A stretch of 64,000 nucleotides of DNA from Hyalangium gracile (GTDB taxonomy: Bacteria > Myxococcota > Myxococcia > Myxococcales > Myxococcaceae). The number at the start of each line of letters is the position of its first letter. Position 1 is the first letter of the stretch. Shown here one piece after another: positions 18,061-24,844 of this stretch. The position numbers and the translations under genes are program-made. A model generated the notes under the pieces. The model did not search any database and was not told the DNA's origin. It was given only the letters and a program-made list of their open reading frames with translations. The DNA lies in assembly GCF_020103725.1 (NCBI RefSeq), contig NZ_JAHXBG010000008.1, positions 62,001-126,000 of the forward strand, read 5' to 3'.

Positions 18061-18792
18061 ATGCGGTTGCTGACCATTGCGCTCCTGCTGTTGGCCCTGC
18101 CTGCCCTGGCGCAGGTGGATGCCCGCGTGGCCTTCCTCACGAAGCAGCTCGAGAAGGGCAAGGATCCCCGCGCCCGCTCCCAGGCGGCCCTGGTGCTGGG
18201 CGCCACCGAGGAGCCCGAGGCCGTCCAGCCCTTGTGCACGGGGCTGGGGGATGCCAGCGAGCTGGTCCGCGCCGCCGCCGCCAAGGGGCTGGCCACGCTG
18301 CGGGAGATGGCCGGGCTGGACTGCCTGAAGAAGCACAAGGAGACGGACGCGGCCACCCTGGTGGCCGTCCGCGAGGCCATCAAGGCGCTCGAGGACTTCA
18401 AGGCCCGGCCCCCGCGCATCTACGTGGACTTCACCGGCGTGAAGGACAAGACCGGCGCGCTGCCGGCGCAGCTGGTGAAGGTCACCGAGGAGCGCCTCAA
18501 GCGGCGGCTCATCCAGGCCGGCGCGCTGCTGGCTCCAGCCAAGGAGCCGAAGAAGGCCGCCCAGGGCGTCCTCAAGAAGCACAACATCTCCGGCTTCCGC
18601 CTCAGCGCGGAGATCCAGACCACCGAGAGCGGAGGGTTGCGTATCGCACTTCTCTGCCTCAGCTATCCGGATCTGGCCCTGCTCGGTCAGGTAGACGTGC
18701 AGGCGAGCGGAGCCGGTCCCGAAGACCTCCTCAAGGCGCTGGTGCCCAAGGCCATCCAGGACGTCGCGCAAACCTTCGAGTGGAAGACATGA
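18061..18792 (+). CDS. secreted HEAT-repeat protein
   Basis: 243 residues from ATG 18061, with a signal peptide (LLTIALLLLALPALAQ). Residues about 25-115 form HEAT-like helical pairs (DPRARSQAALVLGATEEPEAV; ASELVRAAAAKGLATLREM). The C-terminal part (RIYVDFTGVKDKTG ... ALLCLSYPDLALLGQVDVQ) is alpha/beta and resembles periplasmic domains that bind or assemble at the envelope. It is predicted periplasmic. The stop overlaps the next ATG (ATGA), so the two products probably act together. A weak -10-like TAGACT lies at 18042-18047. Confidence 0.7.
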   Translation: MRLLTIALLLLALPALAQVDARVAFLTKQLEKGKDPRARSQAALVLGATEEPEAVQPLCTGLGDASELVRAAAAKGLATLREMAGLDCLKKHKETDAATLVAVREAIKALEDFKARPPRIYVDFTGVKDKTGALPAQLVKVTEERLKRRLIQAGALLAPAKEPKKAAQGVLKKHNISGFRLSAEIQTTESGGLRIALLCLSYPDLALLGQVDVQASGAGPEDLLKALVPKAIQDVAQTFEWKT

Positions 18793-19520
18793 GAGACAAC
18801 TCCCAACAGGACGGCAGCAAGAAGCGCCGGTGGCGCAACTTCCTCATCGAGCCGAAGTTCCAGCTCAAGTTCGCGGCCTACCTCATCGCCGTGACGCTGG
18901 TGGTGGCGGCGGTGCTGGGGGTGTTCCTCTTCAAGAACACGCAGGCGCTGCTGGACGAGGCCAGCCACTCGCTGGAGGCCCGCTCGCGCGCCGCGGAGGC
19001 CAGCCGCGAGCTGTCCAACACCGCCCTGTCCAACGAGCTCATCAAGAAGATGGGGGACCCCGTCTTCGTGGCGCAGCTGCAGTCCACCTCGAAGGCCATC
19101 GACGAGCGCTACGAGGCCGAGCGGACCGCCATCGTCGCCCAGCGCGAGGCGCTGGTGCAGCGCCAGCGCACCCTGTGGCTGGTGTTCTCGGGCACGCTGA
19201 TCGGGTTCCTCGTCTTCGTCTCGCTGACCACCATCGTGCTCACCCACCGGGTGGCCGGGCCGCTGATGCGCATCCGCCGCATGGTGAAGGACGTGGCCGC
19301 CGGGCAGATCCGTCCGCCGCCCTATGGCCTGCGCGAGACGGACGAGCTCAAGGACATCTTCGACGCCACGCGTGGCATGATGCACGTGCTGCGCAAGCAG
19401 CACGAGGATGACGTGCTGGTCATCTCGCACGCGCTGGAGCGCGCGCAGGCGGAGGGGGTCAAGGGCGAGTGGGTCGACGACCTGCGCACCCTGGAGTCCC
19501 GTATCCGGGGCCGGCTCTGA
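18789..19520 (+). CDS. two-helix membrane protein with HAMP domain
   Basis: 243 residues from ATG 18789, overlapping the upstream stop by four bases. TM1 is at about 28-50 (FAAYLIAVTLVVAAVLGVFL) and TM2 at about 125-147 (LWLVFSGTLIGFLVFVSLTT), enclosing a coiled-coil periplasmic loop. A HAMP linker follows (HRVAGPLMRIRRMVKDVAAG; LRETDELKDIF), then a short helical tail. There is no kinase, cyclase or methyl-accepting domain, so it is a HAMP-only sensor or adaptor. With the HEAT protein it forms a two-gene membrane module; its output partner is not evident. Confidence 0.75.
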   Translation: MRDNSQQDGSKKRRWRNFLIEPKFQLKFAAYLIAVTLVVAAVLGVFLFKNTQALLDEASHSLEARSRAAEASRELSNTALSNELIKKMGDPVFVAQLQSTSKAIDERYEAERTAIVAQREALVQRQRTLWLVFSGTLIGFLVFVSLTTIVLTHRVAGPLMRIRRMVKDVAAGQIRPPPYGLRETDELKDIFDATRGMMHVLRKQHEDDVLVISHALERAQAEGVKGEWVDDLRTLESRIRGRL

Positions 19521-19641
19521 CGCCCGAGCCGGGACGCGGCGGCTGACGTCTAAGCGACGCTCCGTGAATTCCGCGCCGCTTGGCTGTTGTCAGGAAGGCA
19601 TTCGCTGCGCATTAAAGGGGTTCTCCGCCATGAGCTGGCGC

Positions 19642-19658
19642 GGGGGAGGACCTGCTTG
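19642..19658 (+). promoter_or_regulatory. ribosome binding site deciding a TTG start for bphP
   Basis: GGGGGAGGA (19642-19650) stands five bases ahead of TTG 19656, the best start signal in the region. There is no ATG or GTG between this point and the conserved chromophore-binding segment. Confidence 0.7.
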
Positions 19659-21944
19659 CACGACGCCTTCAAGGGCACGCTACCGCCTGGGCAGAAGATC
19701 GACCTGACGAACTGTGATCGGGAACCCATCCACATTCCCGGCCACATCCAGGCCCACGGCGTGCTCCTGGCGCTGGAGCCCTCGAGCCTGAACATCCTCC
19801 AGGCGAGCGACAACACGCTCCAGTACCTGGGGGTGCCCGTGGACGCCGTCCTGGGCAAGGGCGTGGATGCCCTGCTGGACACCGAGCAGCTGGTCTTCCT
19901 GCGGAGCACCCTGCGCACCGAGCGGCTGGAGGACAACCCGCTCTACGCCTTCACCGCCTACGTGCTCGGCAGCGGGCCCTTCCACGTCATCGTCCACCTG
20001 CATGACGGGCTGCTCATGATGGAGCTCGAGCCGGTGCGCGCCAGCTCCGTGCGCCAGCCGGACTTCTATGAGCTGATGAAGCGCGGCGTGGCGCGCTTCC
20101 AGTCCGCTCGGACGGTGCGCGAGTTCTGCCAGATGGTGGCCGAGGAGATCCGGCGCGTCAGCGGCTACGACCGGGTGATGATCTACAAGTTCCAGAAGGA
20201 CTGGAGCGGCCACGTCATCGCGGAGGACATGGCCCGGGACATGGGCCTGCCCTCGTACCTGGATCTCCACTACCCGGCGAGCGACATCCCCTCCCAGGCG
20301 CGGGCGCTCTTCCTGCTCAACACGGTGCGGATGCTGCCGGACGCGCAATACGCCCCCTCCCGGGTGGTGCCGGAGCTCAACCCGCTCACGGGCAAGCCGC
20401 TGGACATGAGCTTCGGCTTCCTGCGCGGCGCCTCGCGGATGTACACCGAGTACCTCATCAACATGGGCGTGAGGGCCTCGCTCACCCTGGCCATCTCTGC
20501 GGGCGACAAGCTGTGGGGCCTGGTGGCGTGCCACCACTACAGCCCCCGTCAGGTGCCGTATGACGTGCGCACCGCGTGCGAGGTGATGTCCCGCGTCGTC
20601 TCGCTGCAGGTGGTGGACAAGGGCCGCCACGAGGACGCGCGCTACCGGGAGCGGATGAGCAACGTCCACCGGTGCATGGTCCAGAGCGCGGCCCGGCAGG
20701 AGCGTCTGCTGGAGGTGCTGACCGCGTGCCAGCCCGGGCTGGGAGACTTCATGGAGTGTGGCGGCGCGGCCATGCTGGCCGAGGGCGAGTGCCGGCTGCT
20801 GGGGACCACCCCGAGCGAGGCCCAGGTGCGCCTGCTGGTGGAGTGGCTCAGGAGCTCGCACGGCAGCGAGCTCTTCGCCACGGACATGCTGCCGGAGCTC
20901 TACCCGCCCGCGGAGGCCTTCAAGGACACCGCGTGTGGCGTGCTGGCAGTGCCCATCTCCCGCCCGCGGGGAGAGTACGTCCTGTGGTTCCGGCCGGAGA
21001 CGATCCAGACCGTCAACTGGGCGGGCGATCCCTACAAGCCCGTGGAGATCGGGCCCATGGGCGACAGGCTGACGCCCCGCAAGTCCTTCGAGCTCTGGAA
21101 GCAGACCGTCGAGCGCCGCTCCCTGCCCTGGCTCGACGTGGAGCTGGAGGCCGCCCAGCTCTTGCGCGACGCCCTGACGGAGATCGTCTTCCGCCGCAGC
21201 GAGGAGATCTCCCGCCTCAACCTGGAGCTGTTCCGCAGCAACGAGGAGCTGGACTCCTTCGCCTACGTGGCCAGCCACGATCTCAAGGAGCCGCTGCGCG
21301 GCATCTACAACTACGCCACCTTCCTGACGGAGGACTACGCGCAGACGCTGGACGAGGAGGGGCGCCAGAAGCTGGCCACGGTGGTCCGGCTGAGCAAGCG
21401 CATGCAGGCCCTCATCGACTCGCTCCTGCACTTCTCCCGGCTGGGCAAGAGCCCGCTCCACCTCGAGCCGCTCGAGCTGGGGGCCCTGGTGAACGACGCC
21501 CTGGAGATGGTGGGCGCGCGTGTGACGGAGACGGGCACGGAGGTGTCGATCCCCCGGCCCCTGCCCACCGTCCACGCGGATCGCACGGGCCTGCTCGAGG
21601 TGTACTCCAACCTCCTGTCCAACGCCCTCAAGTACAACGACAAGCCCGAGCGCAAGGTGGAGCTCGGCTACGTGGCCGCGGGTGAGCCCGGCTTCCCGAA
21701 GGAGGCCGAGGGCGCCCGGCTGTGTCTCTACGTGAAGGACAACGGCATCGGCATTCCCGAGGACTCCCGGGAGGAGATCTTCCGCCTCTTCAAGCGGCTG
21801 CACCCCCAGACGGAGTATGGCGGAGGCACGGGGATGGGCCTCACCATCATCCGCAAGGTGATCGAGCGCCACGGGGGAAGGATCTGGCTCGCCTCTCGCG
21901 AGGGAGCGGGGACGACCTTCTACTTCACCCTCGGAAGGGAGTAG
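19656..21944 (+). CDS. bphP: bacteriophytochrome histidine kinase
   Basis: 762 residues with a TTG start at 19656. Order: PAS (about 15-120), GAF (about 140-310), PHY (about 325-500), HisKA and HATPase. Cys20 in TNCDREPIHIPG is the biliverdin attachment Cys of bacteriophytochromes. Asp210 of PASDIP, His293 of ACHH and the PHY tongue PRKSF are present. By ungapped comparison with DrBphP from memory, the His260 position is Tyr263 (SRMYTEYL) and Tyr216 is Phe219. Kinase: phospho-acceptor His in YVASHDLKEPLR, N-box LLSNALKYN, G-boxes DNGIGIP and GGTGMGL. It is a red/far-red light sensor followed by two response-regulator genes. No heme oxygenase gene is adjacent. Confidence 0.93.
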   Translation: MHDAFKGTLPPGQKIDLTNCDREPIHIPGHIQAHGVLLALEPSSLNILQASDNTLQYLGVPVDAVLGKGVDALLDTEQLVFLRSTLRTERLEDNPLYAFTAYVLGSGPFHVIVHLHDGLLMMELEPVRASSVRQPDFYELMKRGVARFQSARTVREFCQMVAEEIRRVSGYDRVMIYKFQKDWSGHVIAEDMARDMGLPSYLDLHYPASDIPSQARALFLLNTVRMLPDAQYAPSRVVPELNPLTGKPLDMSFGFLRGASRMYTEYLINMGVRASLTLAISAGDKLWGLVACHHYSPRQVPYDVRTACEVMSRVVSLQVVDKGRHEDARYRERMSNVHRCMVQSAARQERLLEVLTACQPGLGDFMECGGAAMLAEGECRLLGTTPSEAQVRLLVEWLRSSHGSELFATDMLPELYPPAEAFKDTACGVLAVPISRPRGEYVLWFRPETIQTVNWAGDPYKPVEIGPMGDRLTPRKSFELWKQTVERRSLPWLDVELEAAQLLRDALTEIVFRRSEEISRLNLELFRSNEELDSFAYVASHDLKEPLRGIYNYATFLTEDYAQTLDEEGRQKLATVVRLSKRMQALIDSLLHFSRLGKSPLHLEPLELGALVNDALEMVGARVTETGTEVSIPRPLPTVHADRTGLLEVYSNLLSNALKYNDKPERKVELGYVAAGEPGFPKEAEGARLCLYVKDNGIGIPEDSREEIFRLFKRLHPQTEYGGGTGMGLTIIRKVIERHGGRIWLASREGAGTTFYFTLGRE

Positions 21945-21952
21945 CGGCGGCC

Positions 21953-22390
21953 ATGCAGCAGCGCCCGATTCTGCTCGTCGAGGACAGCCCCGAGGACGTG
22001 GAGGTGCTGCGGCGCGCCTTCCGCAAGCTGAACTTCACCCGGCCCGTCCAGCACTGCGACACGGCGCGCAACGCCTGGGCCTACCTGCGCGGCCCGAGCG
22101 CCGCGCTCGAGGCTCCCACGCGCCCCTGCCTCGTCCTGCTGGACCTGAACCTGCCGGGCGAGGACGGCCGCTCCTTCCTCCAGCAGCTGAAGGCCAGCGA
22201 GGACTTCAAGTCCCTGCCCGTCGTGATCTTCTCCACCTCCGCCAACCTCCGGGACGTGGACTTCTGCTATCGCCACGGCGCCGCCGCCTATCAGGTGAAG
22301 CTCATGGATATGGAGGAGCAGGTGCGCCACCTCCGCGCGATGCTGGACTACTGGTTCGGTGCCGCTGTTCTGCCCTCGAGGGGAGCGTAG
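21953..22390 (+). CDS. single-domain response regulator (phytochrome-associated, Rcp1-like)
   Basis: 145 residues from ATG 21953, eight bases after the phytochrome stop. It is a complete receiver domain with no output: acidic pocket VEDS, phospho-acceptor Asp64 in LLDLNLPGEDG, switch Ser/Thr in VIFSTS and conserved Lys in YQVKLMD (Leu replaces the usual Pro after Lys). The extended loop LRGPSAALEAPTRP is typical of Rcp1-type regulators next to phytochrome kinases. It probably takes phosphate from BphP and acts by protein contact or as a phosphate shuttle. Confidence 0.9.
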   Translation: MQQRPILLVEDSPEDVEVLRRAFRKLNFTRPVQHCDTARNAWAYLRGPSAALEAPTRPCLVLLDLNLPGEDGRSFLQQLKASEDFKSLPVVIFSTSANLRDVDFCYRHGAAAYQVKLMDMEEQVRHLRAMLDYWFGAAVLPSRGA

Positions 22391-22402: not shown

Positions 22403-24844
22403 ATGAAGCCCCAGCGGCGTATCCTGATCGTGGATGACAGCAGGGAGGACCGTGTCGCCTTCAGGCGCTTCCTCCTGCGGGACGTGGAGCACCAGAACCT
22501 CGTGGAGGAGGCGCCCACGGGGGATGTCGGCGTCGAGGCCTGTCGGAGGGAGACCTTCGACGCCGTGCTGCTCGACCACCACATGCCTCGCATGGGGGGC
22601 CTGGAGACGCTTCGGGCCCTGCGCGCCCTGCCTGGGTGGAACACGCCCGTCGTCGCGCTGACGAGCACCGGGCGCGCGGACGTCGCCCGCCAGATGCTCG
22701 AGGCCGGGGCCACCGACTTCCTCTTCAAGGACGACGTCACCGCCTCGTCCCTCAACCGGGCCATCACCAACGCCATCACGAAGGACCGGCTCCAGCGCCG
22801 GGTGGAGAAGGCGGCCTGGCGCACCGCCCGGCTGCAGCAGGTGACGGCGGAGCTGTCGCGCGCGCGGCTGCCTCGGCAGGTGGTCGACGTCTTCCTGCAG
22901 CAGGCGATGGATGCGCTGGGCGCGGCGGCGGCCTACCTGGCGCTGCTCTCCCGGGACGGGGACTCCCTCGAGCTGGACGCCAGCACGGGCTTCCAGCAGG
23001 AGGAGCTCCAGGACTGGAAGCGCATCCTGCTCAACGTCGCGCTCCCCATCACGGATGCGGCGCGCACGGGAGCGCTCATCACCAGCGAGAGCCTGGAGGA
23101 TCGCGTCTCCCGCTATCCGGTCCTGAAGGGGGTTCATCCCCAGTACCCGGCGCTGGCGGCGCTCTCGCTGCGCGTGGGGGATCAGCGGCTGGGCGCCGTC
23201 ATCTTCTTCTTCTCCCAGCCGCGCGTCTTCGAGGAAGAGGAGCGGGACTTCATCCTCGTGCTCGCGCGCCAGTGCGCCCAGGCGCTGGATCGAGCGCGCA
23301 TGTACGAGGAAGCGCGCCTGGCGCGCGACTCGGCCCGGCTGGAAGAGGAGCGCTTCCGGGCGCTCATCCTGGCCTCTTCGCCCGTGGTGTGGCGCGCGGA
23401 TGCGTCCGGCCAGGGGGCCACCAACATCACCGTCCACGAGGGGCGGTTGGGGCAGTCCCTTGAGCGGTCGACGGGGCTGCAGTGGATGGATGCCCTCCAT
23501 CCGGAGGACCAGGAAGCCGTCCTGCGGCAGTGGAGCGAGGCCGTCCGGACGGAGCAGCTGTTCCGGGCGGAGTTCCGCGTCCGCGCGCGAGATGGGAGCT
23601 GGCGGATCCACCTCTCCCAGGGCGTCCCCGTGCGAGGCTCGGATGGGGTGGTGCGCGAGTGGATCGGCGCCAACTGGGACGTGACGGAGGAGCGGGGCGC
23701 GGAGGCCGAGCGCGCCCGGCTCTACGCGGCGCTCCAGGAGAGCGAGACGCAGCGGCGCATGGCGCTGGAGGCGGGCCGGCTCGGTACCTGGGCATGGGAG
23801 CTCGCGGCGGATCGCATCGACATGGACACGGTGGGCAGGGCGCTCCTGGGGCTGCCTGAGCAGGTGCCGCTCTCCGCGGGGATGCTGAGCGAGCACGTGC
23901 ACCCCGAGGATCTGACCCGGGAGCGGGCCTTCTTCCAGGACTTCCTGAGGGCGGGCTCGAAGTCGGAGTATGAGCTGGAGTTTCGCGTCCTGCCGCCGGG
24001 AGGAGGCCTGCGCTGGGTCGTCTGCAGGGGCAGCATGATCCGCGACGGGCGAGATCCCCCCAAGCGCATCCTCGGCGTCTGCTACGACATCACCGAGCGA
24101 AAGACATTGGAGCTCGACCTGCTGCGCCAGAGGGAGGCCGAGCGCAAACGCGCGGACTTCGAGCGGCAGCTCGTCGGCATCGTCAGCCATGACTTGAAGA
24201 ACCCGCTGTCGGCCATCCTCATGCAGTCGGCCATGGCCGTGGTCCAGGGGGGCCTGGACGAGCGCACCCTGAAGATGATGACGCGCATCCAGTCCTCCGC
24301 GGAGCGCGCGAGCCGGATGATCCGCGACCTGCTCGACTTCACCCAGGCGCGGCTGGGAGGCGGCATCCCCCTGCAGGTGCGCGAGCTCGACGCGCGCGAG
24401 GTCGTCGCCCAGGTGCTGGAGGAGGTGCGCCAGGCCTTCCCGTACCGGCGGCTCAGCCTCGAGGCGACGGGAGACACGGCTGGCGCGTGGGATGGGGATC
24501 GGCTGGCGCAGGTGCTCACCAACCTCCTCCAGAACGCGCTGAAGTACAGCCCCGAGGACACGGGCATCCAGGTCCGCCTGCACGGGGAGGGCGCGGAGGT
24601 GGAGCTGTCCGTCCACAACCAGGGCGCGCCCATTCCCGCCGAGCGGCTGCCGCACCTCTTCGAGCCCATGCAGCGCGCCACCTCCCAGGAGGACAAGGCC
24701 AGCCGGAGCGTGGGCCTGGGGCTCTACATCGTGAAGCACATCGTGGAGGCCCACCGCGGCACCGTCTCCGTCAGCTCGCGGGAGGGCGAGGGCACCGTGT
24801 TCAGGGTGCGTCTGCCTCGGCGGGGGCAGGCGCCTCGCCCGTGA
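22403..24844 (+). CDS. REC-GAF-PAS-PAS histidine kinase
   Basis: 813 residues from ATG 22403, 12 bases after the response regulator. Domains: receiver 5-125 (DD at 11-12, phospho-acceptor Asp58 in LLDHHMP), GAF about 145-300, PAS about 316-432, PAS about 453-565 (each closing in DVTEER / DITERK), HisKA with His596 in IVSHDLKNPLSAI, and HATPase (LLQNALKYSPED, SVGLGLYIVKHIV). The N-terminal receiver suggests that BphP or the shuttle regulator controls this kinase, forming a phosphorelay. No transmembrane segment is visible, so it is cytoplasmic. The 3' end overlaps the convergent hsdS gene by 44 bases. Its final output regulator is not in the window. Confidence 0.9.
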   Translation: MKPQRRILIVDDSREDRVAFRRFLLRDVEHQNLVEEAPTGDVGVEACRRETFDAVLLDHHMPRMGGLETLRALRALPGWNTPVVALTSTGRADVARQMLEAGATDFLFKDDVTASSLNRAITNAITKDRLQRRVEKAAWRTARLQQVTAELSRARLPRQVVDVFLQQAMDALGAAAAYLALLSRDGDSLELDASTGFQQEELQDWKRILLNVALPITDAARTGALITSESLEDRVSRYPVLKGVHPQYPALAALSLRVGDQRLGAVIFFFSQPRVFEEEERDFILVLARQCAQALDRARMYEEARLARDSARLEEERFRALILASSPVVWRADASGQGATNITVHEGRLGQSLERSTGLQWMDALHPEDQEAVLRQWSEAVRTEQLFRAEFRVRARDGSWRIHLSQGVPVRGSDGVVREWIGANWDVTEERGAEAERARLYAALQESETQRRMALEAGRLGTWAWELAADRIDMDTVGRALLGLPEQVPLSAGMLSEHVHPEDLTRERAFFQDFLRAGSKSEYELEFRVLPPGGGLRWVVCRGSMIRDGRDPPKRILGVCYDITERKTLELDLLRQREAERKRADFERQLVGIVSHDLKNPLSAILMQSAMAVVQGGLDERTLKMMTRIQSSAERASRMIRDLLDFTQARLGGGIPLQVRELDAREVVAQVLEEVRQAFPYRRLSLEATGDTAGAWDGDRLAQVLTNLLQNALKYSPEDTGIQVRLHGEGAEVELSVHNQGAPIPAERLPHLFEPMQRATSQEDKASRSVGLGLYIVKHIVEAHRGTVSVSSREGEGTVFRVRLPRRGQAPRP

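Follow-up and report, generated by a model that had tools for sequence, protein, structure and literature searches.

Tyrosine takes the place of a pocket histidine that almost every bacteriophytochrome has, His260 of the Deinococcus radiodurans phytochrome DrBphP, in a bacteriophytochrome of Hyalangium gracile, and by sequence the same residue marks a phytochrome clade that spans several phyla. On balance we regard the protein as probably a working bacteriophytochrome that binds biliverdin and belongs to a distinct Tyr260 clade, in which tyrosine would replace the titratable His260 proton relay. The clade is apparently undescribed: searches of open PMC full text gave no account of a bacteriophytochrome with Tyr260. 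Below, ‘the window’ is the whole analysed stretch of 64,000 nucleotides from a host genome of 11.7 Mb. Coordinates refer to it, the phytochrome gene with its codons and the two genes downstream lie on the + strand, and pocket residues carry DrBphP numbers.

A bacteriophytochrome gene with tyrosine at position 260

Pfam domains and PDB matches identified a bacteriophytochrome histidine kinase gene at 19656–21944 (stop at 21944), enclosed in an open reading frame (19587–21944) whose translation contains ...GFLRGASRMYTEYLINMGVRASL.... TTG at 19656, with GGAGG just 5′ of it, is the likely start and agrees with the residue numbering of the original prediction; Cys20, Asp210, Phe219, Tyr263 and His293 of that numbering are residues 43, 233, 242, 286 and 316 of the reading frame. 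In the Pfam scan PAS_2, GAF, PHY, HisKA and HATPase_c each scored above cut-off, which gives the complete bacteriophytochrome architecture of photosensory core and output (PAS-GAF-PHY-HisKA-HATPase). The top-scoring NCBIfam family was the bacteriophytochrome BphP equivalog NF041576, with 347.4 bits against a cut-off of 1040, far too low for assignment to the equivalog and a point against the preferred reading. The typical motifs are all present, and the original prediction was right that they are intact: the Cys codon of the predicted biliverdin attachment site in LTNCDREP (19713–19715), the Asp of PASDIP aligned to Asp207 (20283–20285), the His aligned to His290 (20532–20534; His293 of the prediction) and the PRxSF tongue motif, here PRKSF (21075–21089).

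In a phmmer search against the PDB, SRMYTEYL of the window protein aligned without gaps to SPIHLEYL of SaBphP2 (8uph) and SaBphP1 (6bap, 6bao), and it matches SPMHMQYL of the DrBphP chains equally without gaps. This puts the Tyr codon TAC (20442–20444) at His260, with no His at the site, and Phe (20310–20312) at Tyr216. Both placements had been proposed from the sequence alone and are confirmed by the alignments, and the claim that the replaced residue is the histidine of the pyrrole water and of proton transfer is supported as well. The canonical pair of pocket histidines is thus retained at 290 only. The alignment also shows that Asp207, Arg222, Arg254, Ser257, Tyr263, Ser272, His290 and the Arg of PRxSF are kept and that Thr stands at 274. 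Misalignment of the site was ruled out, as the segment from PASDIP to ACHH is ungapped against several PDB sequences. Sequencing error or an isolated mutation was ruled out as well, by the same Tyr in an orthologue from another species of the genus (L022, genome G006; 87% identity over the photosensory core, no stop) and in a large Tyr clade.

The L022 orthologue is the sole phytochrome match at E 1e-30 in its genome. On contig C33 of the window's host, at about 90357–92584 (L002, L003, L031, L032), lies another phytochrome. It belongs to the SaBphP1 type, with His260 and with Thr at 290, and its reading frame shifts by one in a G run just after QLWG. This copy is either a pseudogene or the product of a sequencing error; if the frame change is real, the Tyr260 protein would be the only intact phytochrome of the genome.

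Distribution of Tyr260

We searched 84,980 genomes, one per species, using a DNA pattern that encodes Tyr-x-[Glu/Gln]-Tyr-Leu-x-Asn-Met-Gly-Val; this pattern overlooks Tyr genes with other neighbouring residues such as L253. The scan gave 63 matches, and by their translated context 56 are phytochrome-like genes with Tyr; the other seven (L040, L055, L073, L074, L078, L091 and L093) were judged not phytochrome-like by reading the context. The original prediction had treated the tyrosine as an oddity of one protein, and in this respect it has to be revised: the 56 genes come from Pseudomonadota, Myxococcota, Planctomycetota, Verrucomicrobiota, Gemmatimonadota and cyanobacteria, with records from Polaromonas, Rubrivivax, Massilia, Noviherbaspirillum, Methylococcaceae, Verrucomicrobia, Gemmatimonadaceae, Isosphaeraceae, Limnoglobus, Polyangiaceae and Hyalangium. 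Met or Ile directly precedes the Tyr in 51 of them, with no Pro two places before, and the remaining five (L036, L076, L039, L053 and L095) do have this Pro (SPIY, SPFY, APCY). Two of the 56 genes, L041 and L068, share one contig. Three Tyr260 genes (L038, L080 and L092) come from metagenome assemblies whose contigs bear the names Klebsiella pneumoniae and Akkermansia muciniphila; these hosts were left uncounted because the names seem to stem from mistakes in naming or binning. No Ramlibacter record was among the 63 matches, with the presence of this genome in the species set uncertain, and the idea that RtBphP1 of Ramlibacter tataouinensis is an already characterised Tyr260 member found no support.

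With a pattern accepting His or Tyr, 195 Myxococcota genomes gave 48 sites, four of them with Tyr, and 399 genomes of the Polaromonas family gave 71 sites, five of them with Tyr. Among newly fetched loci from protein searches, taken best-scoring first, Tyr was present in 4/29 from the Polaromonas family, in 1/7 from Planctomycetota and 1/25 from Alphaproteobacteria (in both cases the seed itself) and in 0/30 from cyanobacteria, where the seed's own Tyr gene ranked below those fetched.

Phylogeny and origins of the tyrosine

The tree was built from 64 rows (23 Tyr, 41 His) after removal of the alignment columns around the site and thinning of near-identical rows; nine of the His rows were excluded, four because they had been flagged as long and five because they were considered too divergent or incomplete, and so were the two Cys rows. 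In this site-blind tree the window protein groups with the Tyr260 clade, in a set of 18 Tyr rows and one His row with support of 97/92, although the bootstrap had not quite converged. Its closest rows, L068 and L141, are both Myxococcota from outside its genus. The Tyr/His label requires four changes on the tree, and the Pirellulaceae Tyr rows and one cyanobacterial Tyr row are placed outside the main clade. A single origin, with all 23 Tyr rows held as one clade, was rejected by the AU test (p 4.6e-73, lnL difference 260). Tyr260 arose more than once. A long-branch His row, L233, sits within the main clade, and holding the 20 main Tyr rows together without it gave p 0.047; either L233 has reverted to His or its long branch is misplaced.

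Tyrosine is dominant but not fixed

Since the first sequence set had been chosen for Tyr, its invariance there is circular. In protein searches blind to the residue we obtained 21 distinct main-clade proteins, with membership judged by identity: 18 carry Tyr at 260 (three of them the seeds G000, G195 and G202), two carry Cys (L250, L258) and one carries His (L256). Tyr is therefore dominant but not fixed, and the Cys and His members argue that it is not indispensable. Its frequency in this sample and across a multi-phylum clade argues that it was selected and is not a slip. L256 has lost the proline of PRxSF and L258 both His290 and PRxSF, while L250 (genome G1337) appears otherwise intact. 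Tandem phytochrome copies close together were observed at L061, L084, L041/L068 (also genomes G034/G203: L097, L136, L141), L088 and L094; of the copies outside the pattern selection, those at L061 and L084 have Tyr, whereas those at L088 and L094 have Cys.

A rival reading is that the window protein is a degenerate or light-independent sensor. Some outlying Tyr and Cys rows have decayed: the cyanobacterial L053 is without the PAS Cys and reads PHQSF, and the Cys copies L088 (578) and L258 are without His290. However, the window protein and most main-clade rows retain every other hallmark, and the L022 orthologue is highly conserved over the photosensory core and uninterrupted, so we consider degeneration very improbable.

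Residues that accompany Tyr260

We compared 54 main-clade rows, with the window counted once, to 127 His260-type rows. Apart from Tyr260 itself the largest differences were Met259 (53/54 versus 1/127), Gly255 (50/54 versus 5/127) and Thr261 (44/54 versus 1/127). Phe216 is present in 48/54 versus 20/127 and, given those 20 His260-type rows, is not unusual on its own. The hallmarks are nearly complete in the main clade, with Asp207 and Tyr263 in all 54 rows, His290 in 52, and both the PAS Cys and the tongue Arg in 50, the other four being gaps in each case. Several signature residues lie in or beside the helix Ser257–Val269, which in DrBphP moves within 1 ps of excitation and passes the signal via His260 and Tyr263 (PMC7164956).

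This block might indicate a compensated neutral swap, in which Phe216, Gly255, Met259, Thr261 and Thr274 re-tune the pocket, Tyr does the work of His260 and the protein runs an ordinary Pr/Pfr cycle. The concerted change of Met259, Gly255, Thr261 and Phe216 along with Tyr would fit such compensation, as would the tolerance of Cys and His within the clade. However, shared ancestry alone could explain the block: co-variation with positions 216, 258, 274 and 206 offers only four independent contrasts, with which significance is unreachable. Moreover, other residues at the site do alter the chromophore pKa in other phytochromes, which is lowered by Gln in Cph1 and by Ala in DrBphP (PMC12961729). 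A neutral swap is conceivable but, in our view, rather unlikely, and a functional replacement of the proton relay remains the reading we prefer.

Gene neighbourhood

The phytochrome gene is followed by a single-domain response regulator of the Rcp/BRR type (21953–22390; Pfam Response_reg) and then by a hybrid kinase with the Pfam order REC-GAF-PAS-PAS-HisKA-HATPase (22403–24844). Among PDB entries the response regulator matches RcpB best (1k66, E 7.6e-29), which is likewise a phytochrome response regulator, and further matches are RcpA, Rcp1, 5brj and 5ic5. The gene order is usual in the clade. Among 55 Tyr genes outside the four loci of separate origin, and counting only loci with room, a response regulator directly follows in 40/46 and a REC-hybrid gene lies downstream in 32/41. 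The operon of phytochrome and response regulator is not special to the Tyr clade, since a response regulator also follows 41/89 His-type genes. Heme oxygenase precedes 24/43 Tyr genes and 29/108 His-type genes, and Pfam confirmed the adjacent heme oxygenase in two loci. The neighbour search saw no heme oxygenase adjoining the window phytochrome; two heme-oxygenase genes, both above the Pfam cut-off, lie elsewhere in the host genome. The protein of 245 residues encoded upstream (18783–19520) had no Pfam match at E 0.001.

Structure model and dark state

The fold was predicted with AlphaFold2 from 46 Tyr-type sequences (pLDDT 91.6, pTM 0.89), and the model superimposes on DrBphP 5nm3 with Z 40.4 and 2.2 Å over 482 residues. 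Many Pfr structures rank above Pr structures for this model. Such a ranking would fit a bathy phytochrome with a Pfr dark state, as would Arg at PRXSF-3 and Gly at PRXSF-8, both found in the window protein and both enriched, not strictly, in bathy bacteriophytochromes; in these Gln at PASDIP-3 is likewise usual but not strict (PMC12362586). However, the window protein has Leu at PASDIP-3, and Arg at PRXSF-3 is also found in 85/127 His-type rows. The ranking itself was given little weight because it has exceptions, such as 5nwn (DrBphP Y263F, dark; Z 39.4, 2.5 Å), and covers a Tyr-type model only. A bathy state is thus improbable, if less so than decay of the sensor.

Proposed mechanism

For a functional Tyr260 phytochrome we propose that light would isomerise biliverdin and that Asp207, Tyr263 and the tongue with its PRxSF motif would carry the signal to the histidine kinase, which would pass it on to the adjoining response regulator of the Rcp type and to the REC-hybrid kinase. 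The substituted residue faces rings B and C. In canonical phytochromes this position is filled by an imidazole that has a pKa near 7.5 and hands on the proton of the chromophore; here it is filled by a phenol that should not titrate in this range. We would expect one pH-independent Pr population from about pH 6 to 9, with proton release and re-uptake changed or taking another route, and Tyr260 may stack on ring C, perhaps with more fluorescence.

Published work on the site makes an altered photocycle a reasonable prediction. Protonation of His260 splits Pr of Cph1 into two substates with a pKa of 7.5 (PMC11924222), and the equivalent His of Agp1 plays a part in proton re-uptake, not in release, and has been proposed as the first proton acceptor (PMC12961729). 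Evidence on tyrosine comes from cyanobacteriochromes, an imperfect comparison. In miRFP670nano3, Tyr87 at the equivalent position stacks on biliverdin and the pyrrole water is missing, but an Asp side chain occupies its place, so that the missing water is not attributable to the Tyr (PMC10357936). In SPI1085g3 C448S, a His-to-Tyr exchange is reported to have increased the incorporation of biliverdin, accompanied by a blue shift (PMC9378818). AnPixJg2_BV4 was ruled out as an H322Y case: the changes given for it are H293Y, F308T, H318Y and I336V, and His322 is kept (PMC8156171).

A bolder reading makes the clade a naturally occurring phytochrome class whose members activate without the His260 relay, with Tyr260 stacked on ring C, a single Pr population, Pr-to-Pfr conversion uncoupled from bulk proton exchange or served by another acceptor, and natural near-infrared fluorescence as a by-product. 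We hold this to be unlikely, slightly more so than a neutral swap. If such a class were real, Cys260 members such as L250 would have a second thiol next to the bilin; they could be natural dual-cysteine, blue-shifted phytochromes in which the thiol of L250 may give a second adduct. As the tyrosine marks a widespread group of sensors, it offers a natural test of whether His260 is necessary, and the proposal of a His260 relay can be examined without mutants that may merely damage the pocket. The clade may also yield near-infrared fluorescent scaffolds.

Comparison with related photoreceptors

SaBphP1 and SaBphP2 of Stigmatella aurantiaca (6bao/6bap and 8uph) are the best PDB matches by sequence and share the domain order of the window protein, and a response regulator also follows the SaBphP2-type genes of the genus (L027–L030). 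However, both have His260 where the window protein has Tyr. Identity of the window core to the SaBphP1 and SaBphP2 types is 37–44%, compared with 87% to L022, and the window protein is therefore not an orthologue of either. SaBphP1 carries Thr at the position of His290 (Thr289; PMC6126659), whereas the window protein keeps His there and lacks the Thr/Gly289 variant; this pocket change at the other histidine is a separate case, as the original prediction had held. DrBphP matches in all other pocket landmarks and, by the model, in fold, but has His260 and Tyr216 in place of Tyr and Phe. Its H260A mutant structure (7z9d) represents a laboratory change, whereas the window Tyr is natural.

RtBphP1 is encoded with a CheY-like response regulator and an atypical hybrid kinase in the same order as in the window, in an operon that includes heme oxygenase, and its Pr and Pfr states are reported at 708 nm and about 740 nm (PMC6848086). 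Its response regulator (5ic5) is not especially close to those of the window or of L065. Tyrosine at the same structural position is found naturally in the CY-motif cyanobacteriochrome NpF2164g5 (PMC9378818) and as Tyr87 in miRFP670nano3. However, the CY-motif and miRFPnano proteins are single GAF domains that bind their bilin via the Cys before the Tyr, whereas the window protein has Met before its Tyr, and hence no CY motif, and carries the PAS Cys instead.
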